A stretch of 64,000 nt of DNA from Scatophagus argus. Its lineage: Eukaryota > Chordata > Actinopteri > Scatophagidae. The position numbers and the translations under genes are program-made. Location of the stretch: contig NC_058497.1 in NCBI RefSeq assembly GCF_020382885.2, positions 17,476,330 through 17,540,329 on the forward strand. Direction: 5' to 3'. Each line of letters opens with the position of its first letter. The stretch's first letter is position 1. The notes beneath the pieces were generated by a model. The model worked only from the letters and a program-made list of their open reading frames with translations, was not told the origin of the DNA and made no database searches. Below are positions 3,601 through 64,000 of this stretch, one piece after another.

Positions 3601-6548
3601 CAGTCTGCAGTGAGAAATGTCCTCCAGGTACTCGCAAGGTTCTGCAGAAAGGAAAGCCTGTCTGCTGCTATGACTGTATAAGATGTGCAGAGGGAGAAAT
3701 AAGCAACATCTCAGGTGAACAAAACAAAACTAAATATTAAAAGTTGTCTCATTTACATGCCAGTTATAAAAAAAGGATCATTTTTCATTTAACTTCAAAA
3801 ATATGGATTGCATAGTAATTATTATATTATTATATTATGCCATCTTTAAGGACACAAAAAAAAAAATCCATGTAAATCAAGTGTGTTCAAAACTTATATA
3901 ACTTAATTATATAATAATTAGATCATCCCTTTGAATATCTGGGTAGTCTGTGCTTGTTCACTGTAGATACTGAGGCCAGCCACTGCTGTGACATCCGTGA
4001 TGGTTTTTATGGCATTAGAAGTATATCGGTGTACAGCTGTAGGTGAGATTGTGTCTTGTGGAATTTCAGTGTTCAGGGTGAGGAGGTGTGGCAAGTCTGA
4101 CCTGTTGATCAGAAAATATGGAATCCAGATGCAGAGGGATGTCCAAGGTCACAGAGTTTGGTGACAAGTTAGGAGAGGATAATTGTGTTAAATACTAAAG
4201 AGTAGTCACTGAGCAGCATTCTGACATAGGCTGACTATTGTCCAGATGGGAGAGGGCAGAGTAGAGTAATGTTTTGTTTTTTTTTGCACTGACACAATGA
4301 AGGCAGTTTTGAAACATTTGAGAACATCTGCATAGGGCGATGACAATTGAATGATGTTAATAAAGAAGTTAGTTGCTGAGCACAGGCTGAGAACACATCC
4401 AGGGATGCAGTCAGGGCCGGCCAGGTCATTAGCCCATCAGGGACTATGGTATGGACCTGTCAAGCACTTTGCATGATAAACCTGATTGCTGACTTCATTT
4501 GGTTCAAGGTTTCTACAAACAGGGCTTCTAGTGAATAACACAGAGAGGCAGCTGTGCTCAAAGCCTTGGCTGAGAAACTCCATGCCTTTGGGGGTCATGG
4601 ACTAGTTTCCAATCAGATTCCCAGTCTGATAGCATCCAATTTGCTAGCCTCTATCCTTCAGGCTTCCCAGGCTACTAATCTGCCCAGCGACATGGAGGTC
4701 CTGCTGCCCAGTGCCCCAGAACTTCAGCAGCCCAGTACTAATGGTCAGCCATCAGAGCATCCCAGTCCACCATAGGTGTAGGGGTCCAACCTCCGCTTAA
4801 GGTCTCGGATACCCTTGATCTCCAACCTCAAGGCCATTTGTCCAAGATCTTAGCCTCTTTTTGCATTGTGCTGTTCAACCAACAGTCCAAAAACTCACTT
4901 GTCCTTTATTATTGTACATGATAAAGAGGACTATAGAGGCTAAAAGACCAAGTACTTTTTGACAACTTAATATTTTTAAATACTTTTTAAATAAAGATCT
5001 TGTAAACTGTATAATAGGTAAGCAAGACTTCAATGAATGCAACTGAAACAAAGAGACAGACAGTTAAAAATTTGCAGAATCTGGAGGGATGTAGATTGCA
5101 CGATGCCTATGCCACCATCATCGTCTTTGTACTTAAATTAACATTGCAGTGATACTCCTATCCGTAAAAAGGTAAAAAAAAAAATGGTAAGTCCAGGATT
5201 ATTTAAAGGGTCCCTCTAATTACTAAAAGATTTTTTTTATTTCCTCATCACGATATTCGAGCATCCATATATTTTTGGTCTTATCTGCACAGATTTTGAC
5301 ATATGTCTCTGTGAAATTGCAACAAATGCATTCAGAGTGAATGAAACTGTGTGAACTGACATTTGAAAATGCAACCTTATCATGTCATTCAAGAAACACT
5401 AGATATAGTGTTTAATTATTAAGAAATAAAACAAATGAAGCAAAAATAATAATTTCTTTGCACTTCACAGACTTGCTATGTCTTCTACTTGACAGATCCA
5501 AAACATTTGTGATGATTCCATCCAATGAGATTATCCATGTATTATCTGGTAATCTTGCAGTGTCTGTATTGTACAAATAGAAAAGGCGCATGAACATGGA
5601 CTGATTCAGTACCTGAATTGATATTATTTTTCAGATTCTATCACCTGTGTGAAATGCAACCCTGACTTCTGGTCAAATGAGAGAAGAGATGCCTGTGTAA
5701 AAAAGGAAGCAGAGTTTCTATCATATGAAGAGGTCATGGGAGCACTGCTCACTTTTGCTTCTCTATTTGGAACATGTATGACTGCTGCTGTGGCATTCAT
5801 TTTCTTCAAATTCAGGCAGACTCCTATTGTGAGGGCCAACAACTCTGAGCTGAGCTTCCTGCTGCTCTTCTCCTTGACTCTGTGTTTCCTGTGTTCCCTG
5901 ACCTTCATCGGCCAGCCCTCTGAGTGGTCCTGCATGCTGCGACACACTGCTTTTGGCATCACCTTTGTCCTCTGTATCTCTTGTGTTCTGGGGAAAACAA
6001 TAGTGGTGTTGATGGCCTTCAGGGCCACACTTCCAGGTAGTAATGTGATGAAATGGTTTGGTCCTGCACAGCAGAAACTCAGTGTTCTGGGTTTCACTTT
6101 TGTACAAGTTGTCATATGTGTGCTCTGGTTAACAATTTCTCCTCCTTTTCCCTTTAAGAATCTTAAGGAATTCAAGGACAAAATCATCTTAGAGTGCGCT
6201 CTGGGCTCAGCTGTAGGCTTTTGGGCTGTACTTGGGTACATCGGACTTCTGGCCATGTTGTGTTTTATTCTTGCTTTTCTGGCTCGGAAACTGCCTGACA
6301 ATTTCAATGAAGCCAAATTTATCACCTTTAGCATGCTGATATTCTGTGCAGTATGGATCACTTTTATCCCAGCGTATGTCAGCTCTCCTGGGAAGTTCAG
6401 TGTTGCTGTGGAGATATTTGCAATTCTGGCTTCAAGTTTTGGACTGCTGATTTGTATTTTTATTCCAAAATGTTATATTATCTTACTGAAACCAGAGAAG
6501 AATACAAAAAAGAACATGATGGGCAAGGTCTCACCAAAATCACTTTGA
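601..6548 (+). CDS. V2R/OlfC-type class C odorant receptor, gene 1 (six exons, intact)
   Basis: Predicted exons are 601-830, 1046-1343, 1594-2388, 3172-3399, 3591-3714 and 5635-6548, giving 862 residues with phases 2,0,0,0,1 as in all neighbours. Exon 1 holds a signal peptide ([15 protein letters not shown]). Exons 2-4 encode the Venus-flytrap ligand-binding domain, including [11 protein letters not shown] and [14 protein letters not shown]. Exon 5 is the cysteine-rich linker (CCYDCIRC). The last exon carries seven helices with [18 protein letters not shown] and the C-terminal [16 protein letters not shown]. For exon 2 I chose the acceptor at 1046, which restores the family's LNFRGF start; an acceptor at 1058 is also in frame. 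The family detects amino acids in fish olfactory neurons; the ligand here is unknown. Intron 5 is long (1.9 kb) and contains LINE debris. No stop or frameshift is seen. Confidence 0.92.
2516..2860 (+). repeat. dispersed teleost repeat in intron 3 of gene 1
   Basis: This stretch has the wording of a very common fish interspersed repeat: TGTTCTCCCCTGT, then GGCATGCAGGTTAGGTTAAT, then a TGTGAATGTGAGC block, ending in a GATAATGGATATGGATG tail. I recognise the pattern but not the family name. It gives a false open frame at 2499-2921 that I do not annotate as a gene. Confidence 0.6.
3960..4440 (-). mobile_element. decayed LINE reverse-transcriptase fragment (L2/Rex-like)
   Basis: Read on the minus strand, bases near 4410-4220 translate to [11 protein letters not shown], then [16 protein letters not shown]. 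These match the GPDG-PGRVL and CFK-S-IVPVPKK blocks of jockey/L2-type LINE reverse transcriptases. Lower coordinates keep a broken trace of the next block (near FLINRS-VRL). The frame is disrupted by stops and shifts, so this is an old insertion. It sits inside intron 5 of gene 1, antisense to the gene, and partly explains that intron's length. Confidence 0.6.
4441..5634. other. remainder of gene 1 intron 5, unclassified
   Basis: No receptor exon is seen. The stretch 4540-4790 is less AT-rich than its surroundings and has a 73-codon open frame (4554-4775) rich in Ser, Pro and Gln. It may be part of an old dispersed element, but I recognise no motif. The rest is AT-rich intron. Confidence 0.4.
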
Positions 6549-7208: not shown

Positions 7209-10200
7209 ATGCCATTGTTGAACTTGCTCCTCTTGGCTCTGCTAATGAGGAAGGGAAACTCAGTGTGCCGACTGCAAGACTCGGCACAACCAGCTGAATT
7301 GGCCCAAGATGGTGACCTTGTTATTGGAGGCATTTTTTCATTTCGCACAGGGCAGGATTACACAATTAACACGTTTGAGACTATTCCACAAGTACGAAAA
7401 TGCAAGAAGTACGTATTGCTATGTCTATATACTTTCAATAGTTTGTATGCATCTTATGATGTATTTGAGACATTAATATAAATATACACAATTCCATTCT
7501 ATCTTTCCTCACCCCAGCTTCAATTTTAGGGAATTCAAATTTGCTCAAACTGTGATATTTGCTATAAATGAGATCAACAAAAACCCTGATATACTTCCTA
7601 ATTCTCAACTTGGCTACAAGATCTATGATAACTGTGGAACTATGGACATACTGAAAGCTGCGTTGGCACTGGTGAGTGGACTGAAGAAAGAAGTCAGTAA
7701 TAACAACTGCACCAAAACTGAGACAGTACAAGCTATTTTGGGACATTCAGGATCAAGACCAACTATTGCATTTGCACAAGTTGTTGGAAGGTTTCAGATA
7801 CCTGTGGTAAGTGTGTGCTATTGGAAATATAGAATAGAACAGAATAGTCTTTATTGTCATTGTGCATGTAAAATGAAATTGAATGCAATCCTCATTTGTA
7901 CCAAGACTATAAAATATCAGCAGTATATTACAATTTTCTGCAACTTTCATAACTGTGGTACAGATCCAGTAATGAACGTGCAAGAATGTTAAATATTGGC
8001 ATTTTACAGCCACTAAAATGTTTGTATCTTGCACTGCAGATCAGCCATTTTGCCACCTGCGCCTGTCTGAGCAACAGGAAAGAGTATCCCACCTTTTTCA
8101 GAACTATTCCCAGTGACTACTACCAGAGCAGAGCATTAGCAAAGCTGGTCAGGCACTTTGGTTGGACCTGGATTGGGGCTATAGCTGTAGATAATGAATA
8201 TGGCCTCAATGGTATAGCTGCATTTAAGCAAGCAGCACAAGAATATGGAGTGTGCATTGAGTATTCTGAAGCCTTTTCATCATCAGATCCACCCAATAGG
8301 TTGCAGAGCATTATAGAGATCATTAAGTATTCCACTTCCAAGGTGATTATGGCTTTTATGTCTCACAGAGAAATTAAGTTGCTGGTTGAAGAGTTGTACA
8401 AACAGAACATTACAGGACTGCAGTGGGTTGGCAGCGATGCCTGGATCACAGATCACTCTCTGACTGACAGTGAGGGACACAGCATCCTGCTGGGTTCACT
8501 CGGTTTCACTGTGAGCAAAGCTAAAATCTCAGGGCTGGAGGAATACCTGAGGCAGCTTCACCCCAGACAGTTCCCTGAGAGTCAGTTTGTCAGAGATTTC
8601 TGGGAAAACACATTTGACTGCACTCTGAATGAAACTGCAAACGCACAAAGAAAGCCATGCAGCGGTTCTGAAAGTTTGCAGAATGTTCAGTCACAGTTCA
8701 CTGATGTGACTGAGCTGAGATTTACTAATAATGTATACAAGTCAGTTTACGCAGTGGCTCACGCTCTTGACAACCTTATTAAATGTGAGGAGGGTAAAGG
8801 GCTCTTTGCAAATGGGAGCTGTGCTGATACCAAACACTTTCAACCATGGCAGGTGAGGAGCCAATCAAGTCTGACAGAGTGTTACAGCAAGAGTCATTAT
8901 TATTTAATGTAACTGAATTAATGTGTAATTTCTTATCTAGGTCTTGCACTATCTCAACACTGTGAATTTTACCACTGAGGAAGGGGAAAGAGTTTATTTT
9001 GACAATAATGGAGACTCACCAGCAAGATATGAACTTGTTAATTTACAAGTGACAAACAAAGGAACCATGGAAGGAGAAACAATTGGCATATATGATGCTT
9101 CTCTTCCAGAAAGTCATCAGTTTATCATGAATAACCTCCCAGTTGTCTGGGGAAATGGGCTGACAGAGGTAAAGCAGAGACTGACGTTTGAACTTGTGGT
9201 TCTAAAAATCTTGATATGTGACGCTGAGCTTTACATCTTTTATTTTTATTTAACTGTGCATACTGAATGGGTCTCAGGTGCCCGTGTCAGCGTGCAGTGA
9301 CAACTGCCTCCCAGGAACTCGTAAAGTCCTCCAAAAAGGAAAGCCAGTCTGCTGCTATGATTGCGTACCTTGTCCAGCAGGCGAGATCAGCAATGTAACA
9401 AGTAAATAAACAATGTATTTCATGTATTTCAAGTATTTCACTTTTTGTTTAAAATGCAGTAAAATAATAACACATGATATATGACGTAAAACAAAACAGA
9501 TGATCAGAAAAGCAGCTTTACAAGTGTTTTCTTAAAACAAAACATTGATGTAACTCCACATTTTTCTGTACTGTTTTTCATTTTTGCAGATTCAATACAC
9601 TGTTTGAAATGCCTGCCAATGTACTGGTCCAACAAGGAGAGAGATGCCTGCATTCCCAAAGCAATAGAATTTTTATCATATGATGAAATCCTGGGAACGT
9701 TGTTAGTTTTATTTTCTCTGCTCGGAGTTTTTGTAACTATGATAACAACACTAGTCTTCTACTGCCACAAAGAAACCCCACTAGTACGAGCCAACAACTC
9801 TGAGCTGAGCTTCCTGCTGCTCTTCTCCTTGACTCTGTGTTTCCTGTGTTCTCTGACCTTCATCGGTCGGCCCTCTGAGTGGTCCTGCATGCTGCGACAC
9901 ACTGCATTTGGCATCACCTTTGTCCTCTGTATCTCTTGTGTTCTGGGGAAAACAATAGTGGTGTTGATGGCCTTCAGGGCCACACTTCCAGGTAGTAATG
10001 TGATGAAATGGTTTGGGCCTGCACAGCAGAGACTCAGTGTTCTGACTTTCACTCTCATACAAGTTTTAATTTGCACGCTATGGCTGACAATCAACCCTCC
10101 TTTTCCTTACAAGAATATGCTGCACTACAAGGACAAAATCATCTTAGAGTGCGCTCTGGGATCAGCTGTAGGCTTTTGGGCTGTGCTTGGGTACATAGGA

Positions 10201-10509
10201 CTTCTGGCCATGTTATGTTTTTTTCTCGCTTTTCTGGCTCGGAAACTACCTGATAATTTCAATGAAGCCAAATTTATTACCTTTAGCATGCTGATATTTT
10301 GTGCTGTATGGATCACTTTTGTCCCAGCATATGTCAGCTCTCCTGGGAAGTTCACAGTGGCTGTTGAGATATTTGCTATTCTAGCCTCCAGTTATGGACT
10401 ACTTTTCTGCATATTCCTACCAAAATGTTACATAATTTTGTTTAGACCGGAACAAAACACGAAGAAGCACATAATGGGAAAGACATCTACTAATGATATA
10501 CATATTTAA
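7209..10509 (+). CDS. V2R/OlfC-type class C odorant receptor, gene 2 (six exons, intact)
   Basis: Exons 7209-7408, 7518-7806, 8040-8852, 8941-9168, 9278-9401 and 9590-10509 join in frame to 857 residues. The signal peptide is [18 protein letters not shown]. The flytrap domain spans about residues 25-510 ([28 protein letters not shown]). The cysteine-rich linker is near 510-575 ([21 protein letters not shown]). Seven helices follow at about 580-830, with [18 protein letters not shown]. The start is the ATG 60 bases after a TATA box; an upstream in-frame ATG at 7083 lies before that box. A poly(A) signal AATAAA lies at 10627-10632. Gene 2 is closest in style to gene 1, and their helix 2-4 DNA is nearly identical. 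The receptor class is certain; the ligand is not. Confidence 0.93.
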
Positions 10510-13535: not shown

Positions 13536-14075
13536 CATTTTGAGTCATAGTAGCAAAGTTACTGGTGTAACTAATGACAGTAATGAATATTTACCCCTGT
13601 GCCTTTACTACTGTGAGACATCATGATGTTGTCCATGCAGAAGACCTGTAGTGTTTGTGCAATAACTATTAGATGATGTAGTTGTTCTTCAAAAATTAGT
13701 TATGTTGCCCTGGAATTTAGACAGCTAAGTGGAAATTATGCTCAGAATCTCCTAATAACCAATGAAACCAATTAACTTGAGATACAACAATCTCGTAAAT
13801 TATGACATAAGATGCTTGGCAGTTAATGTTTGGGGTTTTTTTTGTTTTGTTTTTTTAAACTACTTGACTTACATAATGAGTTACACAAATGCCTCACTAT
13901 TTAGTGCTTCAGTAAACACTCTAAATTTGTCAAATTGGTTGTTATTAGGAAACAGGGCCCATGTGTATTCCCTGTCAGATTTATTCTTCATGCCTGACAT
14001 CCTTCAGATCTTTCACAAATATTTGCATGTACCTCTGAGGTTGACCCACCTACACTTGAGTAGCAGAGAGGAAGC

Positions 14076-14083
14076 TATAAAAT
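14076..14083 (+). promoter_or_regulatory. TATA box of the divergent V2R-like locus
   Basis: TATAAAAT lies 53 bases before the ATG at 14129, close to the spacing in genes 2, D and D'. A preserved promoter element argues that this locus is, or was until recently, transcribed. Confidence 0.5.
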
Positions 14084-14128
14084 ACATCCTTCCAACGATC
14101 CTGACTGTGCCAAAGGCGAGGCTTTGAG

Positions 14129-16845
14129 ATGACAACAGTCGCATTTGTCTTTTTATCACTGTTTACTTGGATGGTGTCATCTGGCACATGGCTCAGACTG
14201 GACCAGTGTACTGAGCTCTGTCAGTATGGGCATGATGAAGAGACAAAGGGCTTCAGCTCAAATGCATTATATAAAAAGGCTGCTATTCATGAAAAAACAA
14301 AACTGACACTGACATGTCAGAGGTGAGTAAATTGGAGGTAAATTGTAATGTTCTCTGTCCATTTCCTTCACTTGGATCTTTTTCATTCAGTTGCTTTGTC
14401 TGTCAAGGGTCTGGATACCCCAGTGTGGTTTCCATCAGATTCATCAGTGTTGAACTTGTAATCTAACGATACCTCAGCAGGGAACCATTCTGAATTGAGG
14501 GAACCTAATGAGAGACCGCTTAAAAGACAATTAGACTATTCTCCAGATGAGGTTTTATGAGCCACTTACAACTTGAAGTCAATTTACTGTAATTATATAC
14601 AAAGTAACAGACTGAGTTATAATGCTTTCCACTGCACTGTTAGATTTGGAGATGTTATTTTACCAGTATTACCTTTTGCCTTTAAATACCAGTTTAGCTT
14701 ATTTCTAACTACAAATGGTGAACACTTGGGTATTCAAAAGAATGTGTCACAGAAGTTAAGGGTGATAAATATGTGATATGTGCTACATAATGTGATTATG
14801 AACTGATGCTTGCAACTTTTATTTTCTGTTTTCTGATCTGTTTAGATCTCTTGAAATGAATGTTGCCTTGGGGATAATTTTCGCACAAGGCTGGATCAAA
14901 AAAGACTGTACTCTCTTTCCTTGTTGGACTTTGAACTTTAATGGCTGTATGAACCTGTTGCAAAGACTGAAAGAGACTGTGAATGGAAAGAAGCAAAGCA
15001 GACATGTCTGCAAGTGTCAGTTTCGGAAGTTGTTGGTATATTTCCTGTCTAATACCAGTTGTATTCCACTTACAATGGAGGTGAGCACCAGAGGTTGATG
15101 TTAAGAGGAATCACACTCAGAACAGTTAACATGAAATGAAATCTGAGTTTAGAACAGCTTTCATTCATTACTTACTGTCACTGTTGTGCTGAAGTGTATT
15201 TTCATCTGTGTTTTTACTTTTCCTTCATGCAGACAGCAACAGATAATCACAACACACATTTGAATTACGGAGGTATATGTCCTTCATTTGTTCTCCTGAG
15301 ATCTGTGGCTCACTGCTACCATATCACTAACATTACTCATGTTGTAATGGATGACATGAAAAAAATGGATTGTATCTGCATGTATAAGGCATGCAACCTT
15401 GATATAAAAATACTGCAAGGCTCTTTGTGTAGAGGATTTGGATATGCCTGTCCAGAATACCTTATCTCCATCCTGTCTGGAAGCCAAGTGAGCCTGATGT
15501 CTTTAGCAGCATCAAAGAAGGCTTTTGTCGGGATCTGCTTTCTGCAGGTTTGTAGGTACTCCTACAGTATTTCTATGTAGTGCCTTTAATGTGAGCAATG
15601 GATGTTGTGACACAATAACAGTATTTTTTTCACTCGAGTTTGCACATAAGTGTGGTGATATATAAAAAAATATTTAGAACTATCACTGTATGCATAATTT
15701 TACATTATGACATTGATATATTTTGTAATAGAGGACAGTTTCTGGGTAGTGAAATGAGAAACCCTCTGCAGACAGAACAACCACATAGGAAAAACCACGG
15801 GATCAATTGCTTCTTTGAATAATTCAGTTAATTTATTGATGCATAATATTCTGTAAGTTCACTATGACCAGGAAACAGTTATCACAGTGCAAATGGTATA
15901 CATAAGTCTGACCAGTTGACAAATTTATAACTTCTCACAGTATATTGTATATGTTCATATTCCCCACCTGTATTTGCTCGATTGTCTGATGTGTCTGCAG
16001 TAAATTTTCACATTTTGTCAACAGGTGCCATCAAAGTTCTATCAAACACCTTGTCCAAAAGAAGCATTTCTACCACAAGCAGGTAATATTTAAAACAAAA
16101 ATATCACTAATTTCAAGACAAGTATGCATGAATTTCATTAAAAAGTGTTGGCAACAAATTTACTGTTTACACAGGCGAGGTGGAGAGCCTGTGGCCTACA
16201 AACATTAGGGGACGGGTTGCCAGATGCTTCTTGGCAGCTGTGTTACTGCTTGGAATCTACATCACAAGAGTAAAAGTAACTCCAAACACAGTCAATCCTG
16301 CTCATGGCAGTAACTCCACAATGGTGATGCTTTTTACCATGTCCTGGCACTATTTTTCACCATCACTTGCCACCCATCAAACTTCCGAGTGGTCACAGAC
16401 AGCTATCGGGATATCTCTTGTTATTTGCCTCTCTTCTGCACTGAGGAGAAGTGTACATGTGTTAATTGTCTGTAAGGCCACTCGTACTGTCATGAAAGTG
16501 TTTTGTGCCACACAGCAGCAGTTTAGGACTTTGCCAGTTACTGTATTGTTTGTCTGGTTAATTTGCAGCCCTCTTTTTCCAAATAATGTAAAACACTGTT
16601 TTGAACACATGCTTGTTGCTGATGCTGTGGGATCGACACCAAGATCCTGGGCTGTGTTAGGGCAGATAGAGCTGCTGACTACTTTGTGCTGTGTCTTTGT
16701 ATCACTTCCGAGTATACTACAATGTGTCCTGACCGAATTAAATTTTTTGAGCGTCCTTTTAAATGTGCAACTGGTAACCTGTCTTCAGAATTCAAGGGCA
16801 CCAACAAAGTATGTACTGGTTGTTAAGATCAATAGGTTAATTTAA
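14129..16845 (+). pseudogene. highly divergent, shortened V2R-like locus with all recognised exons open
   Basis: Predicted exons are 14129-14322, 14846-15080, 15233-15547, 16025-16082 and 16175-16845, all joining in frame to 490 residues. Phases 2,0,0,1 match exons 1, 2, 3, 5 and 6 of the intact genes; no exon 4 is seen. Exon 1 has a signal peptide (VAFVFLSLFTWMVSSGTW). The last exon aligns with the seven-helix exon: SEWS, TAIGISLVICLS against [22 protein letters not shown] against [19 protein letters not shown] against GKFTVAVEI. It lacks the two cysteines that normally link the loops before helix 3 and helix 5, and stops before helix 7. The flytrap exon 3 is 315 nt instead of about 810. Indels in the last exon look like multiples of three. 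It could be an eroding pseudogene or a rapidly changing gene with a new role. Homology is convincing; function is open. Confidence 0.6.
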
Positions 16846-22900: not shown

Positions 22901-23815
22901 GATTCCTTGGACTGTTTGATCTGTCCACCTGAATTTTGGCCAAATGAAAAGAAAGATCAGTGCCTTCCAAAACCTACTGAATACCTTTCCTATAAAGAGA
23001 TCATGGGGGCACTTTTAACTGGATTTGGCTGTGCTGGTGTATTTTTATCTCTTCTGACATCAGTCATTTTTCTGGTTCACAAAGAGACTCCCATTGTAAA
23101 AGCCAACAACTCTGAACTGAGCTTTCTGCTGCTTTTCTCATTAAAACTGTGTTTCCTGTGTTCTCTGACCTTCATCGGTCGGCCCTCTGAGTGGTCCTGC
23201 ATGCTGCGACACACAGCATTTGGCATCACCTTTGTCCTCTGTATCTCATGTGTCCTGGGGAAAACAATAGTGGTGTTGATGGCCTTCAGAGCCACACTTC
23301 CAGGCAGTAATGTGATGAAATGGTTTGGTCCTACACAACAGAGACTTAGTGTTCTGACTTTTACTCTCATTCAGGTTGTGATTTGTATACTTTGGCTAAC
23401 AATCAACCCTCCATTCCCGAGGATGAACATGAAGTACTATAAAGAGAAAATAATCTTAGAGTGCGCCCTGGGTTCAGCTGTTGGATTCTGGGCTGTGTTA
23501 AGTTATATTGGATTTCTTGCTCTCTTGTGCTTTGTACTTGCTTTTCTTGCCAGGAAGCTGCCAGATAGCTTTAATGAAGCCAAACTGATCACGTTCAGCA
23601 TGCTGATATTCTGTGCAGTCTGGATCACATTTATCCCAGCGTATGTGAGTTCTCCTGGAAAGTTCACTGTAGCTGTGGAGATTTTTGCCATTTTGGCCTC
23701 CAGTTTTGGTTTGCTGATATGCATTTTTTTACCAAAATGTTATATTATTATCTTCAGACCAGAACGAAACTCTAAAAAACATTTGATGGGTAAAATACCC
23801 ACAAGAACTCTTTAA
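19960..23815 (+). CDS. V2R/OlfC-type receptor, gene D (six exons, intact)
   Basis: Exons 19960-20162, 20311-20581, 20695-21498, 22111-22341, 22630-22753 and 22902-23815 join to 848 residues. The signal peptide is [17 protein letters not shown]. The flytrap domain includes [11 protein letters not shown] and [20 protein letters not shown]. The linker has [11 protein letters not shown] and [17 protein letters not shown]. The seven-helix exon ends [21 protein letters not shown] poly(A) signal is at 23944-23949. It is paired with D' 22.9 kb away: both predict 848 residues and I count five differences in the last-exon products. Within exon 3 the first third differs strongly from D' and the rest is almost identical, suggesting recent conversion. 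Confidence 0.93.
21569..21990. repeat. CA-rich microsatellite region in intron 3 of gene D
   Basis: Two CA-rich tracts (about 21569-21600 and 21935-21990) are separated by T-rich intron. D' has a single related tract at 44481-44514, so the microsatellite predates the duplication. Confidence 0.7.
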
Positions 23816-29184: not shown

Positions 29185-32100
29185 TTATCTTTGCATCATG
29201 TTTTTCTTGGTGTTTTTTTCTGGTTTCAGAATTATTATACAGCATTTTGGGAAAAAAATGCAAAAAAGGAGACCAAAAGCTGAAGCTAAGATAGCAAAAA
29301 TATGGACCGCCACTGTGTATTTCCCAGCTGTGCTCACATAAACTGGGATAAAAGTAATCCAGACTGCAAAGAATATCAGCATGCTGAATGTGATGAACTT
29401 TGCCTCGTTAAAATTATCTGGTAGCTTCCGAGCCAAAAATGCCATCAGGAAACACATGCAGGCCAGGATGCCAATGTATCCAAGAACACACCAGAAGCCA
29501 ACCTCTGAACCGGGAACACACTCGATGATGATGATAGCACTGTGGTAACCTGTGTTGTTATTGGCATGAGGTGGACTGGTGAGCAGCCAGATAAGACAGA
29601 TTATTACCTGAGTGGAGGGAAAAATAGGATGATCATTTTAAGGTGACAAAGTTGAATGAACATTTATCAACTTAACTTATGGCAAGTATTTCTACCTGAA
29701 CTGCTGTTCCTAAAAGTGCACTGGCCCTCTGTTGGTTGGGTCCAAACCATTTCATGACATTGCTCCCTGGCAGTGTGGATCTAAATGCCATTAGAACCAC
29801 TATAGTCTTGGCCAGTAAACATGAAATGCACAGAGCAAAACTGATCCCAAATGCTGGGTACCTGATACGGCAAAGCCAGTCTGAAGGCTCACCAATGAAC
29901 AACAGACCAACAAGGAAGCAGACAGCAAGAAACAGCAAGAGAAGGAAGCTCAGTTCCATATTGTTGGCCCGAACAAGTGGTGTGTCTTTGTATGTAAAGA
30001 ATATGGCCAGAATGGAGAGGGAAATACAAGCTCCAAGGACGGATACAGCACAAAGCACACCACCCATCAGCTCATGGAAAGACAGGAACTCAACCGTCTT
30101 TGGGATGCAGAGATTTCTTGCTTGATTGGGCCACGTGTCCTTTGAGCAGCGTGAGCACTCTAAAGAATCTATAGACACCAGAAGAGGACTTTTTAGTTTG
30201 GAGATGCTACATTTACATAGAAGCACAACAATTTATATATGGGTAACATAGAAGAAAAAATGACAGAAGACCACAAACCAGTCTTATTGCTAACTTCTCC
30301 TTCAGCACAGGGGACACAGTCAAAACAGCAGATGGGTTCCCCCTTTCTCCTGCCGATGCGAGAGCCTGGAGGGCAACTCTCACTGCATACAGAGCGGGAG
30401 GCCTGAGAGGCAAATTTCAGCCACTCAGAAAGACTCTGATTTCAACCAGTATCCACCACTGACACTGCTGTGTTATGCAATACTGGTCTTTGCAGACTAT
30501 TTCAGATACAGACTAAAATGTTATGGAAATCGAATTTAATGTGATTTATAAAAGCTACATTTTTGCAACTAAAACTGAATATAATTCTGTGACCGAGCAT
30601 GTAATGTAATAAATAATCAACACAATTGTGGTGTAAGAATACTGTGATACTTGTTACACAATGGATGAACTCTTTTAATCCCCACATAATGAAAAGAGAA
30701 CTGTTTATCAAGCCTGTGTCAGATGTAACTTATGTACTGTAATTATTCTAAAACTGTCAACAAAATGTTGGGTTAATAATGGGATTTATGAAGATGCACA
30801 GGTAATTGATGTAACTATCAGCTTGAGCAGTTAAATTTGAAGGTAACATTTTCTCAAAAATAAGTATATTGCACGCTAATAAAAACAAATTTGCTGATGT
30901 GTTTATCAACAGTACATACAACAGTCGAAGAGGTGAACACGGCCTCAAGCCCTTTTGCAGAGAACACACCTGTTTCCCAATAGGCCACTGTATCACTGTG
31001 TCATTTATGACCAGACTGCGTCCAGTAGGTGAGGAGGCATGATAGAAGCCTACTTTTACCAAGTGTAATGAGCCATCAGGCCTCTTTTGCCAGTTCATAA
31101 GATCATAATAAGCAATGGGGTCACCGTTTTGATCAAAGTTGACTTTCTCCCCCAGTGCAGAGAAATTAGCATGCTTCATGTAGTAGATAAGCTGAGGGAA
31201 TAAGGAAAACAAAAAACCATGATGGATATGACTTTCTCATCTCATCAAGTTTTTACTTAAATATAATATTTAATGCACAACTAGTCTCACCTGCCAAGGT
31301 TTAAAATCTTTGGGGTCTGCACAGGTACCATTAAGAAAAGGCCCCTGTCCAACTTTGCAGTTACTCATGTCTTGCAAAGCATGGGCCACCAGATACACAG
31401 CCTTGTAGACATTATAGGACACTCTTAGCTGTGTCACATCGGAATAAGGAGAGTAAACATTATTTAAATCCTCCTTCCCTTTACATGGCGATCTGTCAAG
31501 GTAACTGTCGACCCCGTGAGAGTGGCTGTTCACTGACCCGTTCAGTTGACAGTTAAACAGCTCTTCCCAAAACTCTGCCAGGAATGCTGATTCATGAATA
31601 TCGGATGGTCTGAGACTAGTGAGGTGTTGTTTCAGCCCTGGAATCACATCAGCTCTCCGGATGGCGAATCCAAGTGTTCCCTTTAGGAGGTCCCCAAACT
31701 TTTCCCAGAGTGATCTGGCAGTGGACCAAGCCTCACTGGCGATCCACTGCAAACCAGTTATATTTCGATGTCGAATCTCTCTCAGAATACCCTGCATCTC
31801 TGATTCACCAGAGAAGTTAATGATGACCTTTGAGGACGCTGTCTAAATTGTGAAAATGTACGTATATATAATTAATACAATTTAAACTGTTAAACAACTT
31901 TAATTAAAGGGTCAGCTCACCCTTAAATGAAACACATTTTTTCCTATTACCTAAGATGTTACTTGTCAATCTGTCTAGAATGTTTTGGTGTGAGTTGTCA
32001 AGTTTTGGAGATGCTTGCCAAAGAAATGCGTTCTTGCTAATATAATCCAACTTCATGGCACTCAGCTTTTGGTGCTCAAAGCAGCAAAATGATAAAATAA

Positions 32101-52268: not shown

Positions 52269-52545
52269 CTTTATTTAATATTATGTAAGTTTGTCGTACA
52301 CTGATCATACACTAAAGGAAGTTGTCAACAACGTAAATTTAAAAAAAGAAATCTAATCATATTTGTATTATAACATGCTATCAATAGTTGCATCGACAGA
52401 GAAAACTTTTTGCAATGTGAGAAAAAATTTGTTCTGGACAACAAAGCATTGTACTTGAATAAAACAACACAACACAAATATCGCATTAAAAAGACTTTCT
52501 CACACATGTAAATTCTTACTCAACACATGTATTTTACTTCCATCT

Positions 52546-55500
52546 TCATCTTTGCATCATGTTTTTCTTGGAGTTTCTTTCTGGTTTCAGAATGATAATG
52601 TAGCACTTGGGAACAAAAATGCAAAAAAGGAGACCAAAAGCTGAAGCTAAGATAGCAAAAATATGGACAGCCACTGTGTATTTCCCAGCTGTGCTCACAT
52701 AAACTGGGATGAAAGTAATCCAGACTGCAAAGAATATCAGCATGCTGAATGTGATGAACTTTGCCTCGTTAAAATTATCTGGTAGCTTCCGAGCCAAAAA
52801 TGCCATCAGGAAACACATGCAGGCCAGGATGCCAATGTATCCAAGAACACACCAGAAGCCAACCTCTGAACCAGGAACACACTCGATGATGATGATAGCA
52901 CTGTGGTAACCTGTGTTGTTATTGGCATAAGGTGGACTGGTGAGCAGCCAAGTCAGAGAGACTATTACCTGAGGTGGAAAAAAAACAAGATGTTCTTATT
53001 GAAAACACAAGCTAACCTCAATGCAAATGCTTACACCAATATTCAATGATTTGCATTGTAGGGACATGTTTTTCCCCATAAGTGTCCCCACGATGTGTGT
53101 AAACAACACACTGTGTAAACAGATTTTTGATGCCACAACTAAAGGAATACCCATCCACACACACACAGACACACACAAATAATAAAGACATTTATCAATT
53201 TGATTTATGGAAAGTGATCCTACCTGGACTGCTGTTCCTAAAAGTGCACTGGCTCTCTGCTGGTTGGGTCCAAACCATTTCATGACATTGCTTCCTGGTA
53301 GTGTGGATCTAAATGCCATTAGAACCACTGCAGTCTTGGCCAGTAAACATGAAATGCACAGAGCAAAACTGATCCCAAATGCTGGGTACCTGATACGGCA
53401 AAGCCAGTCTGAAGGCTCACCAATGAACAACAGACCAACAAGGAAGCAGACAGCAAGAAACAGCAAGAGAAGGAAGCTCAGTTCCATATTGTTGGCCCGA
53501 ACAAGTGGTGTGTCTTTGTATGTAAAGAATATGGCCAGGATGGAGAGGGAAATACAAGCTCCAAGGACGGATACAGCACAAAGCACACCACCCATCAGCT
53601 CATGGAAAGACAGGAACTCAACCGTCTTTGGGATGCAGAGATTTCTTGCTTGATTGGGCCACGTGTCCTTTGAGCAGCGTGAGCACTCCAAAGAATCTAC
53701 AGATGCCAGAGGAGGACTTTTTAGTTCAGAGAAGCCACATTTACACACACACATAAAAGCAAGTGAGTTCAAATTTAGATAGCATAAAGGAAAGGATGAC
53801 AAAAGACAGAAGACAAACCAGTCATGTTGCTAACTTCCCCCTCAGCACAGGGGACACAGTCAAAACAGCAGATGGGTTCCCCTTTTCTCCTGGCGATGCG
53901 GGAGCCTGGAGGGCAACTCTCACTGCATACAGAGCGGGAGGCCTAAGAGGCAAATTTCAGTCACTCAGAAAGATGCTGATTTCAGACAGTATCCATCGAC
54001 TTTTCCATGTTTGTTCTGTTTCTGGACACCACAGACTATGTGCAGTGCACTTTCCACGGGACTGATTTTGTTAATTTCCATTCATAATTCTGTTAATTAT
54101 TTTACAGAAAGTCTGTTTATCCTTACAAACCTAAGTACTGCACTTTTTGACTTGTAAGCTAGGTTTTTACTATTTTATTTTGCTTGTTTAACAGTTAAGT
54201 ATATTGCACATTTGTTATAAGTTAATACGTTCATTTACAGTACATACAACAGTCGAAGAGGTGAACACGGCCTCAAGCCCTTTTGCAGAGAACACACCTG
54301 TTTCCCAGTAGGCCACTGTATCACTGTGTCATTTATGACCAGACTGCGTCCAGAAGGCGAGGAAGCGTCATAGAAGCCTACTTTTACCAAATGTAATGAG
54401 CCATCAGGCCTCTTTTGCCAGTTCAAGAGATCATAATAAGCAATGGGGTCACCGTTTTGATCAAAGTTGACTTTCTCCCCCAGTGCAGAAAAATTGGCAT
54501 GCTTCATGTAGTAGATGAGCTGAGGGAGGAAGGGAAACAGGTTATCCCAAAAAAAAAAAAAAAGATTTTCTCATCTCATCAAGTTTTTACTTAAAAATAA
54601 TATTTTATGCACAACTAGTCTCACCTGCCAAGGTTTAAAATCTTTTGGGTCTGCACAGGTACCATTAAGAAAAGGCCCCTGTCCAACTTTGCAGTTACTC
54701 ATGTCTTGCAAAGCATGGGCCACCAGATACACAGCCTTGTAGACATTATAGGACACTCTTAGCTGTGTCACATCGGAATAAGGAGAGTAAACATTATTTA
54801 AATCCTCTGTCCCTTTACATGGCGATCTGTCAAGGTAACTGTCGACCCCGTGAGAGTGGCTGTTCACTGACCCGTTCAGTTGACAGTTAAACAGCTCTTC
54901 CCAAAACTCTGCCAGGAATGCTGATTCATGAATATCGGATGGTCTGAGACTAGTGAGGTGTTGTTTCAGCCCTGGAATCACATCAGCTCTCTGGATGGCA
55001 AATCCAAGTGTTCCCTTTAGGAGGTCCCCAAACTTTTCCCAGAGTGATCTGGCAGTGGACCAAGCCTCACTGGCGATCCACTGCAGACCGGTTATGTTCT
55101 GCCGCCGAATCTCTCTCAGAATACTGTTCATCTCTGACTCACTGCAAAAGTTAATGATGACCTTTGTGGATGCTGCCTAAACAATGAAAACGGAGGTATA
55201 GTTAATATCTAATGAAGTTTATACTGTTTTAAGTGCTGTAAATGATGGTGTGTTGGACCTCCTCTACTTTATATGAAATTTGGTGCACGTTCAATCAGCC
55301 ACAATATTAAAGCCGCTGAAAGGTTAGGTGAATAAGACAAATCATAAATACAATGTTCTGCTCGCCCCCAGGCTGCATCAATGCCTTGATGGGTCAGAGC
55401 CAGGTTCAGTTCTCCGGATTGTGGTGTCTGATGGATAATTTTGGTCCTGTGGGCTGCAAGGTGGGGCCTCCATGAATTAGACTTGTTCCAGCACATCCCA

Positions 55501-59428: not shown

Positions 59429-60686
59429 TCATCTTTGCATCATGTTTTTCTTGGAGTTTCTTTCTGGTTTCAGAATGATAATGTAGCACTTGGGAACAAA
59501 AATGCAAAAAATGAGACCAAAAGCTGAAGCTAAGATAGCAAAAATATGGACAGCCACTGTGTATTTCCCAGCTGTGCTCACATAAACTGGGATAAAAGTA
59601 ATCCAGACTGCAAAGAATATCAGCATGCTGAATGTGATGAACTTTGCCTCATTAAAATTATCTGGTAGCTTCCGAGCCAAAAATGCCATCAGGAAACACA
59701 CGCAGGCCAGGAAGCCAATGTATCCAAGAACACACCAGAAGCAAACCTCTGAACCAGGAACACACTCGATGATGATGATAGCACTGTGGTAACCTGTGTT
59801 GTTATTGGCATGAGGTGGACTGGTGAGCAGCCAGATAAGACAGATTATTACCTGAGTGGAGGGAAAAATATGTAGGATGATCATTTTAAATCGACATAAG
59901 TGAAAAACAAAAAAGCAAAAAGAAAAAAAACCAAATGCATTTATTAAGCTGACTTGTGGAAAGTGATCCTACCTGGACTGCTGTTCCTAAAAGTGCACTG
60001 GCTCTCTGCTGGTTGGGTCCAAACCATTTCATGACATTGCTTCCTGGCAGCGTGGATCTAAATGCCATTAGAACCACTATAGTCTTGGCCAGTAAACATG
60101 AAATGCACAGAGCAAAACTGATCCCAAATGCTGGGTACCTGATACGGCAAAGCCAGTCTGAAGGCTCACCAATGAACAACAGACCAACAAGGAAGCAGAC
60201 AGCAAGAAACAGCAAGAGAAGGAAGCTCAGTTCCATATTGTTGGCCCGAACAAGTGGTGTGTCTTTGTATGTAAAGAATATGGCCAGGATGGAGAGGGAA
60301 ATACAAGCTCCAAGGACGGATACAGCACAAAGCACACCACCCATCAGCTCATGGAAAGACAGGAACTCAACCGTCTTTGGGATGCAGAGATTTCTTGCTT
60401 GATTGGGCCACGTGTCCTTTGAGCAGCGTGAGCACTCTAAAGAATCTATAGATGCCAGAAGAGGATTTTTTAGTTTGGAGATGCTACATTTACATATAAG
60501 CACATCAGTTTATATATGGGCAACATAGAAGAAAGAATGACAAAAGACAGAAGACAACAAACCAGTCTTATTGCTAACTTCCCCTTCAGCACAGGGGACA
60601 CAGTCAAAACAGCAGATGGGTTCCCCCTTTCTCCTGGCAATGCGGGAGCCTGGAGGGCAACTCTCACTGCATACAGAGCGGGAGGC
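59429..60686 (-). CDS. V2R/OlfC-type receptor, gene C (3' part: last three exons)
   Basis: Minus-strand exons 60686-60563 (cysteine-rich linker), 60445-59973 and 59851-59429 (seven helices, split in helix 5) are open and correctly phased. They encode the same series as A and B, ending [13 protein letters not shown]. Exons 1-4 are not seen in the 500 bases before the LINE at 61191; they may lie beyond the right edge, or be lost. The part seen is a patchwork: its 3' flank and last exon resemble B, while the introns around the linker exon resemble A. A minus-strand TTTATT at about 59119-59125 is the likely poly(A) signal. Whether C is a working gene cannot be decided here. Confidence 0.85.
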
Positions 60687-61190: not shown

Positions 61191-64000
61191 TTCAGAATCA
61201 GAATCAGAATCAGCTTTATTTGCCAAGTATGTGTGACCATACAAGGAATTTGACTCCGGATTTTTCTCTGTCCTGTGCACCATACAAAATACAAAAAAGC
61301 AATAATAATAATAAAAAGAAGAATAAAATATTTACAAGAAGAAAAAATATATATATATATATATATATACATGTAGTGCAACCAGTGGAATGAGGTAGTG
61401 CAAACAGTGTGATGGTTCACACAATGGCAGGTGGTTTATGGGGAGATCAGGGAGACAGCCTGGGGGAAGAAACTGTTTTTGTGTCTGGTGGTCTTGGCAT
61501 ACAGAGCTCTGTAACGCCTACCAGAGGGAAGCAGATCAAACAGTTTGTGTGCAGGGTGTGAGGGGTCTGCAGTGATGCTTCCTGCCCGTTTTTTGACCCT
61601 GGACTGGTATAAGTCCTGGATGGAGGGCAGGTCGGCCCCGATGATTTTTTCTGCAGACCTGATTGTCCGTTGCAGTCTGTTTCTGTCCTGTTTGGTGGCC
61701 GATCCAAACCAGACAGTGATGGAAGTGCAGAGAACAGACTGGACGATGGAGGTGTAGAAGATGGTCAGCAGCTCCTGAGGCAGGTTGAACTTTTTCAGCT
61801 GTCGCAGAAAATACAACCTCTGCTGGGCCTTTTTTCTGATTAGGTCTACGTGGGACTTCCACTTGAGATCCCGGGCGATTGTAGTTCCCAGGAACTTAAA
61901 GGAGTCCACAGTAGACACTGTGTTGTTGAGAATGGTAAGAGGAGGTACGGTGGGTGGGTTCTTCCTAAAGTCCACTGTCATCTCCACAGTCTTGAGCGGG
62001 TTAAGCTCCAGGTTGTTCTGACCACACCAGAGGACCAGCTGGTCTACTTCACGTCTGTAGGCAGCCTCATCACCATCCTTGATGAGGCCAACTACAGTTG
62101 TGTCGTCCGCAAACTTAAGTAGTTTTACGGACGGGTCCCCTGAGGAGCAGTCGTTAGTGTATAGGGAGAAGAGCAGCGGGGAAAGAACACACCCCTGGGG
62201 GGCGCCAGTACTGATGGTTCTGGTGCTGGAGGTGATGCTCCCCAGCCTCACCTGCTGCCTCCTGTCAGTGAGGAAGTTGTAGATCCACTGAGAGGTGGAG
62301 GTCGGCACTGTGAGCTGTGAGAGCTTCTGGCGGAGGATTTCTGGGATGATGGTGTTGAATGCAGAGCTGAAGTCCACAAACAGGATCCTGGCATATGTCC
62401 CTGGGGTGTCGAGGTGATGGAGGATGAAGTGCAGTCCCATGTTGACTGCGTCATCCACCGACCGGTTTGCCCGGTAGGCAAACTGCAGGGGGTCAAGCCG
62501 GGGGCCTGTGATGAACTTCAGGTGGTTCAGCACCAGCCTCTCAAAGGATTTCATGACCACAGACGTCAGGGCGACGGGTCTGTAGTCATTCAACCCCGTG
62601 ATGGTGGGTTTTTTGGGGACTGGGATGATGGTGGAACGTTTGAAGCAGGAGGGTACTTCACACAGCTCCAGAGATCTGTTGAAGATCTGGGTGAAGATGG
62701 GTGCCAGCTGGTCAGCGCAGATTCTCAGGCAGGAGGGGGACACACCGTCAGGTCCTGGAGCCTTCCTGGTCTTCTGCCTCTTGAAGAGCCGATGCACCTC
62801 CTCCACATTGACCTTCAGTGCTGGTAGGAGGTCTGAGTTGAGGGGGGAGGGTGAGGTGTCAGGTATGGCACAGAGGTTGAGTGTTGTGGATGGGGTGGGA
62901 GAAGGGTGTGAAAAGCGGCAGTAGAAGCTGTTCAGCTCCTCTGCCAGTCCTTTGTTACCCACAGGGTGGGGGGATGGGCTCCTGTAGTTGGTGATGTCTC
63001 TCAGGCCTTTCCACACTGAAGTAGGGTCGTTGGCTGAAAACCTGTCTTTCAGCTTCTCAGAGTAGCACCTCTTTGCAGCTCTGATCTCCCTCGTCAGTGT
63101 GTTCCTGGCCTTTTTGTACAGGGCCCTGTCCCCACTTCTGTGGGCCTCCTCCTTAGCCTGGCGCAGCTTCCTGAGTTTATTGGTGAACCATGGTTTGTTG
63201 TTGTTGTATGTGCAGAAGGTTTTGGTCTGCACACATGAGTCCTCACAAAAACTGATGTAGGATGTCACAGTGTCGGTCAGTTCATCCAGGTCTGTGGCTG
63301 CAGCCTCGAAGACACTCCAGTCAGTGCAGTCAAAGCAGGCCTGTAACTCCAGCTTTGACTCAGCTGTCCATCTCTTAATTGTCCTCACTACAGGCTTTGC
63401 TGATTTTACCTTCTGCCTGTAGGTTGGGATGAGATGGACCATGCAGTGGTCAGAGAGTCCCAAAGCAGCACGGGAAACAGAGCGATAGGAGTCCTTTAGA
63501 ACAGTATAACAGTGGTCCAGCGTGTTAGCATCCCTGGTGGGACACTTTATCTGTTGTCTGTATTTTGGGAGTTCTTGGCTGAGGTTTGCTCTGTTAAAAT
63601 CCCCAAGAATGATGAGCAGGGAGTCTGGATGTTTAGCCTCCATGTCTGATACCTGGTCAGCTAGGTGTTGTAACGCCTCCGTTACACATGCCTGAGGTGG
63701 AATGTAAACACTGACCAGGATGAACGAGGAGAACTCCCGCGGTGAATAAAATGGTTTACAGTTTATGAATAACGACTCAAGATGAGGACTGCATGATTTC
63801 CTTAACACTGTGACATCTTCACACCAACCTTCGTTGACAAAAAAGCACGTTCCGCCTCCCCTCTTCTTTCCAGAGAGCTCCGAGTTGCGGTCCGCACGGA
63901 AGAGCCGGAAGCCGGGCAGCTGGAGAGAAGCGTCCGGGATGTGTTCGCTGAGCCAGGTTTCAGTGAAACACAGAGCGGCGGAGTTCCTAAAGTCGGAGTT
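61191..64000 (-). mobile_element. LINE (L2/Rex1-like), near-complete 3' part, runs off the window
   Basis: A non-LTR retrotransposon on the minus strand. Its 3' end is a GATTCT repeat (61213-61193) preceded by AAATAAAGCT, the usual tail of a common fish LINE. Upstream come a short 3' region with a TA microsatellite (about 61344-61370) and one long reading frame. The tail is clean and the frame unbroken, so the insertion looks young. The 5' end and any target-site duplication lie outside the window. It lies where gene C's exon 4 would be expected. Confidence 0.85.
61436..64000 (-). CDS. LINE ORF: AP endonuclease plus reverse transcriptase (5' partial)
   Basis: The frame is open from the right edge (64000) to the stop at 61436, 855 codons counting the stop. 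The first codons read [17 protein letters not shown], the ETWL block of AP-type endonucleases, followed by ILGDFN and LSDH. The reverse transcriptase has [65 protein letters not shown] and the catalytic FADD (about 62113-62102). The C-terminus reads [20 protein letters not shown]. The enzyme would nick target DNA and copy its own RNA there. All key motifs I looked for are present. A GTG near 63808 is not a start; translation begins beyond the window. Confidence 0.9.

Follow-up and report, generated by a model that had tools for sequence, protein, structure and literature searches.

A shortened, strongly diverged V2R-like locus with an open spliced reading frame in an odorant-receptor array of Scatophagus argus

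We confirmed that a locus of Scatophagus argus contains a five-exon, 490-codon model whose existence lies far above chance expectation. The frame, splice sites, intron phases, and TATA box of this candidate persist despite a TM-exon branch longer than that of CaSR, and the dN/dS estimated for this branch is less than 1. By its sequence, the candidate is a member of the V2R/OlfC gene family by descent. With what remains of the receptor, it is not a working V2R. We give an even chance to its being a retained protein-coding gene that is still selected today. Our fuller reading, which we put forward tentatively and at rather less than even confidence, is that a V2R gene may have become a single-copy, non-receptor membrane protein under weak purifying selection. 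It would have lost the flytrap, helix 7, and the cysteine-rich linker without breaking the frame, while keeping its promoter and splicing, and it possibly regulates V2Rs in the cluster.

A five-exon model within a V2R array

The candidate occupies positions 14129..16845 on the plus strand of the window, by which we mean the whole 64,000-nt stretch of DNA that was analyzed (contig C5:17476330-17540329). The window sits within a tandem array of fish V2R (OlfC) odorant receptors. One intact neighbor, G2 (7209-10509), has about 857 codons in six exons with intron phases 2,0,0,0,1. Its TM exon matches Pfam 7tm_3 at 4.9e-86, and its exon 3 matches ANF_receptor at 2.4e-47. The features of the candidate are as follows.

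14076..14081, plus strand: TATAAA, a likely core promoter element 53 bases 5' of the ATG, a spacing like that in neighbors G2, G3, and G7
14129..14322, plus strand: exon 1, with the ATG and a signal-peptide-like start (judged by eye and hydropathy); without detectable similarity to V2R exon 1
14846..15080, plus strand: exon 2, weakly similar to V2R exon 2 (first flytrap lobe), in the same frame as the model
15233..15547, plus strand: exon 3 as first described, 315 bases (813 in G2); similarity not above shuffles
16025..16082, plus strand: short exon where intact genes have the cysteine-rich linker exon (their exon 5), by order and phase only
16175..16845, plus strand: TM exon, in-frame homologue of V2R TM exons at about 32% identity, with no stop; ends before helix 7

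A preliminary description of this DNA had joined these exons in frame, with phases 2,0,0,1, into 490 codons plus a stop (1470 coding bases), and we reproduced that model. The phases had been likened to those of the intact genes. They match those of G2 save for the missing exon 4, which is phase 0/0. Exons 1, 3, and 5 of the candidate are assigned by order and phase only. The splice sites had all been called good, which holds for six of them (2.4 to 7.8 bits) but not for the exon-3 donor (0.9 bits) or the TM-exon acceptor (1.6 bits), which are weak by the approximate tables we used. The TATA box had been placed at a spacing typical of the family. Its position at -53 does resemble those in G2 (-60), G3 (-57), and G7 (-56), but six of the nine neighbors scanned, some of which have uncertain ATGs, have no TATA at a like spacing.

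The chance expectation for the model was obtained from dinucleotide shuffles of positions 13629-16174. To qualify, a model had to have an ATG, open exons of plausible length in phases 2,0,0,1, and splice scores above zero. None of 198,286 shuffles contained any qualifying spliced open model. When the threshold was loosened to -3 bits, one of 1500 shuffles did, with a score of 4.6, which shows that the test is able to succeed. By comparison, the model as first described scores 33.8, and the best real model scores 37.2. The latter ends exon 3 after 15487, at an alternative donor that is in frame, scores better, and gives an exon of 255 instead of 315 bases.

The better exon-3 donor, together with the finding that frames are open in 740 of the 26,880 splice combinations near the sites of the model, is what would be expected of a normal or near-normal gene with a wrong exon model, in which other exons or splice sites would give a fuller receptor. 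We regard this explanation as very unlikely, because conserved cysteines and motifs have been lost inside the TM exon itself. It is also opposed by searches for what a fuller receptor would need: four references revealed no exon 4 relic in the interval from exon 3 to exon 5, and three references revealed no helix 7 downstream of the TM exon.

Other parts of the window had features of their own. In three minus-strand V2Rs (29185-30232, 52472-53829, and 59429-60509), an extra intron interrupts the TM exon after GTAVQ; exon 3 is split as well in at least one of them (56584-56282 and 55185-54625). Both arrangements depart from the six-exon zebrafish plan given in PMC1764893. A segmental duplication links about 20-34.7 kb with 43-57.9 kb, where paired stretches that contain V2Rs on both strands lie about 22.5 to 23.4 kb apart and are 78-100% identical. 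Within the TM exons of G1, G2, and G3, one stretch (5820-6119, 9775-10074, and 23087-23386) is 89-93% identical in DNA among the three genes, above the flanking part, a pattern that gene conversion would leave. At the end of the window (62001-64000), G+C rises to 53%, and a 168-codon open reading frame (62321-62827) is not V2R-like by eye; this region may be repetitive or may belong to the margin of another gene.

Descent from V2Rs and loss of receptor features

The candidate TM exon aligned in frame and free of stops with the seven unsplit V2R TM exons of the window, at 24-32% identity. At an alignment penalty of -15, these comparisons gave a single frameshift call, against G1 and near the alignment edge. 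When we searched the 570.7-Mb genome with the same exon, there were at least 60 matches, at C5 17.38-17.83 Mb. Among the matches listed, none had an internal stop, the candidate locus itself was 100% identical and 59 others were 27 to 36% identical. An alignment against G1 made from DNA only kept one frame across its best stretch, with gaps of 12, 9, 15 (7 + 5 + 3), and 3 bases, and the frame shifted via small gaps on either side of that stretch. When an ML tree was built from 32 sequences (30 V2R TM exons, CaSR, and the candidate), the candidate fell, with low supports, within a clade of G1, G2, G3, and L009, and its branch had a length of 4.6 changes per site. In a tree of ten V2Rs with CaSR and the candidate, its branch was 2.3, compared with 0.77 for CaSR.

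Upstream of the TM exon, resemblance to V2Rs was confined to exon 2. Against G2, this exon scored 44, a value equalled by none of 300 shuffles and none of 72 intergenic windows. It beat 12 shuffles with two of four references (G2 and G4, but not G1 and G6), and hhalign gave it an E value of 0.01 and a probability of 4%. Similarity was not above shuffled controls for exon 1 against six references or for exons 3 and 5 against V2R references. Part of the ancestral exon start may survive, out of frame, in the DNA 5' of the TM acceptor; the best of ten queries for it gave a nonsignificant p of 0.08. The label of V2R-like locus that the candidate had been given therefore applies to part of it: going by similarity, V2R sequence can be recognized in the TM exon and, weakly, in exon 2, but nowhere else.

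More general searches returned little. Neither the TM exon nor exon 3 matched Pfam 7tm_3 or ANF_receptor at E values up to 1, the TM exon had no match in PDB by phmmer at E values up to 1, and an alignment query found no relatives in viral contigs. A second copy would permit a direct estimate of dN/dS, but a DNA search of the 48-contig genome, which passes over simple repeats and very common words, returned only the candidate locus.

The receptor features that had been reported as missing were missing in our analysis too. The candidate is without exon 4, most of the flytrap, and everything from helix 7 onward, its stop preceding that helix. Ten V2Rs and CaSR share 94 invariant positions, of which the candidate keeps 22, has substitutions at 50, and lacks 22, six of those it lacks falling upstream of the start of its TM exon. 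Two cysteines of G2, which we take to be those of the loop disulfide, are also gone, C100 by deletion and C188 by replacement. The remaining ectodomain has 18 cysteines in 270 codons, which is not a significant enrichment (P = 0.08). The AlphaFold model of the candidate TM exon was unusable (pLDDT 43, pTM 0.34). The intact G2, given the same eight rows, was modeled poorly too (54 and 0.52), so this result tells nothing about the candidate. The structure alignments used seven of the ten V2R TM exons in the window and left out the three with an extra intron.

Stops, frameshifts, and constraint

It had been argued that a pseudogene as diverged as the candidate should carry stops, and neutral simulations bore this out. 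At 0.4 substitutions per site, the TM exon was stop-free in 0.10 to 0.24% of runs. At t of 0.6-0.8, where identity matches that of the candidate, none of 120 runs was stop-free; the minimum was 2 stops and the mean about 8-10 (8.5 to 9.6). This result disfavors an ordinary old pseudogene.

For comparison with real decay, we hand-picked four V2R TM loci, chosen for their fragmentary matches, out of the 44 TM loci in 258 kb. Another two loci, on the minus strand (C5:17562984 and 17568876), have 5-6 stops if read through but are probably intron-bearing and were therefore excluded from the count. The relics are as follows.

L029, C5:17377.9k: decayed V2R TM fragment with frameshifts or stops
L036, C5:17444.8k: decayed V2R TM fragment with frameshifts or stops
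L044, C5:17588.2k: decayed V2R TM fragment with frameshifts or stops
L045, C5:17590.6k: decayed V2R TM fragment with frameshifts or stops

At a penalty of -15, the relics carried 5, 2, 1, and 3 frameshifts or stops at identities of 47 to 89%, whereas the candidate had 0 or 1 frameshift and no stop across six references. At a lax penalty of -10, the relics had 6, 2, 1, and 4 lesions, and the candidate had 3 or 4 frameshift calls, again with no stop across six references. At this setting, single-base losses were called near 16762, 16770, and 16775, and the three sum to three. The lax penalty weakens the relic control, since the frameshift calls of the candidate become like those of the relics, but the stop count is unaffected. 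We made the same calls on neutral simulations that were frame-true (t = 0.65). At least three frameshifts were called at -10 in 9 of 24 runs and any at -15 in 3 of 24, while every one of the 24 had stops in the aligned part (1 to 9). Because these simulations also give spurious frameshift calls, such calls say little at the distance of the candidate, and it is the absence of stops that carries the comparison. A first impression by eye of a frameshifted TM tail was rejected, given that nothing was called there at -15 and that similar calls occur in frame-true simulations.

We estimated dN/dS on the one long candidate branch against paralogues, with six or eight of the 30 V2R TM exons as references. 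The estimate was 0.34 for the best-aligned 110 core codons (2dlnL = 5.2 against 1), 0.33 for 222 codons (2dlnL = 11.0 against 1), and 0.24 with eight references (2dlnL = 23.5; background 0.135). These values of 0.24-0.34 compare with 0.10-0.14 for the family. In a neutral calibration, for which simulated sequences were put through an identical alignment and fit, dN/dS of 0.33 or below was reached in none of 48 runs at t of 0.45 and 0.65, in 2 of 42 at t of 0.8, and in 20 of 42 at t of 1.1. With eight references, 5 of 120 neutral runs overall were at or below 0.24, one of them with a 2dlnL of 24.5; none of 36 was as low at matched identity, a null made up of runs at identity 0.30-0.34 that were chosen after the fact. 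The test is thus valid at the observed identity, and its power falls if the true divergence is larger.

Other measures suggested less constraint. In hydropathy, in its count of hydrophobic segments, and in composition by codon position, the TM exon was no better than after neutral drift of 0.3-0.4 per site. At core nucleotides on which six references agree, the candidate differed at 0.32, 0.27, and 0.33 of codon positions 1, 2, and 3, with only 9 third positions contributing; where three references agree, the values were 0.34, 0.26, and 0.54. The differences across codon positions point to weak constraint.

Could an old pseudogene have stayed open by luck and been noticed because open ones catch attention? 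Its amino-acid identity, hydropathy, and composition would then simply be what neutral drift leaves, and the three to four frameshift calls of the lax alignments would fit as well. Even so, we consider it quite improbable. The TM exon alone was never stop-free in the matched neutral runs, the upstream exon chain never arose in the shuffles, and dN/dS on the candidate branch is below 1. There were also few tries, because only 44 TM loci occur in the 258 kb, and four of these are clear relics. The stop simulations, the shuffles, and dN/dS likewise led us to reject an ordinary old pseudogene.

Taken together, the absence of stops at matched divergence and a dN/dS below 1 suggest that the candidate stayed coding while it diverged beyond its neighbors. 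The preliminary description had left a choice between late decay after relaxed selection and a small membrane protein kept for another role. Our results go part of the way with it: ordinary old decay is disfavored, and late decay would have to be very late. At 0.05 substitutions per site, 490 codons would escape any stop with a probability of 0.039, so the stop count limits unconstrained drift to about 5% of sites. An aberrant V2R derivative that was selected through most of its divergence, and that lost its function too recently for a lesion of the frame, would be expected to show no stop up to that amount of change. Decayed hydropathy, two weak splice sites, and the absence of helix 7 and of conserved motifs would be in keeping with such a recent death. 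It requires a narrow time window, however, and the losses are not recent, given that the remaining ectodomain is mostly unrecognizable. We hold this explanation to be a serious possibility, if a somewhat doubtful one.

Possible role and comparison with known receptors

If the candidate is instead a retained gene, it would be a single-copy offshoot of fish V2R/OlfC genes that lost its receptor constraints long ago and retained its coding capacity and some selection. Its product would carry a signal peptide, span the membrane with about five or six helices, and have an ectodomain of about 250 residues from which the amino-acid flytrap role has presumably gone. Such a protein would probably be incapable of signaling by itself. 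It might pair with intact V2Rs via its membrane part and restrain or modulate them, which is the likeliest mode of action in our view, though one that we suggest at low confidence and by analogy with truncated GPCR isoforms. If the frame was kept through such divergence, then some truncated chemoreceptor loci would be genes with another role, and receptor arrays may supply new membrane proteins.

Among known systems, the closest are the teleost V2R/OlfC receptors, which are class C GPCRs. The candidate resembles them in its place in the array, in sharing the direction of most neighbors, in exon order and phases, in the in-frame homology of the TM exon and the weak homology of exon 2, and in the TATA spacing of G2, G3, and G7. 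It is unlike them in being shorter than G2 by hundreds of codons (490 versus about 857), in lacking exon 4, in its short exon 3 and linker exon, in keeping only 22 of 94 invariant TM residues, and in the loss of helix 7 and the loop cysteines. In zebrafish, V2R intron phases are strictly conserved on a six-exon plan, according to PMC1764893. The candidate lacks both helix 7 and six exons, which that study uses as criteria, and by them it is not an intact OlfC gene.

Incomplete V2Rs have been described before. The pufferfish and medaka V2R cluster lies between neprilysin and PLC-eta2, as reported in PMC1601972, which could assign its fish V2R pseudogenes at >80% identity to a functional gene and puts its short V2Rs down to incomplete data. 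The candidate is likewise incomplete, but it is stop-free at about 32% identity, whereas the four relics in the cluster carry lesions. A large vertebrate survey set its limit for a complete V2R at 2100 bases (PMC10869828). Having no loss-of-function mutation and 1470 coding bases, the candidate would, we infer, be classed as truncated by the rules of that survey. The truncated and partial classes of such surveys are mostly fragments or assembly gaps of otherwise normal receptors, an explanation that PMC1601972 gives for its own short sequences, whereas the candidate is strongly diverged and has a complete reading frame between its ATG and its stop. In a title-level search of the V2R literature, which is no proof of absence, we found no title about a V2R that had taken on a different role.

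Truncated GPCR isoforms offer a functional parallel. In vitro, they act predominantly by retaining the full-length receptor in the ER, as stated in the abstract of PMC3477067. Like them, the candidate has fewer than seven helices and could act on full-length partners. Those isoforms, however, are splice variants of working genes, whereas the candidate is a separate and strongly diverged locus.
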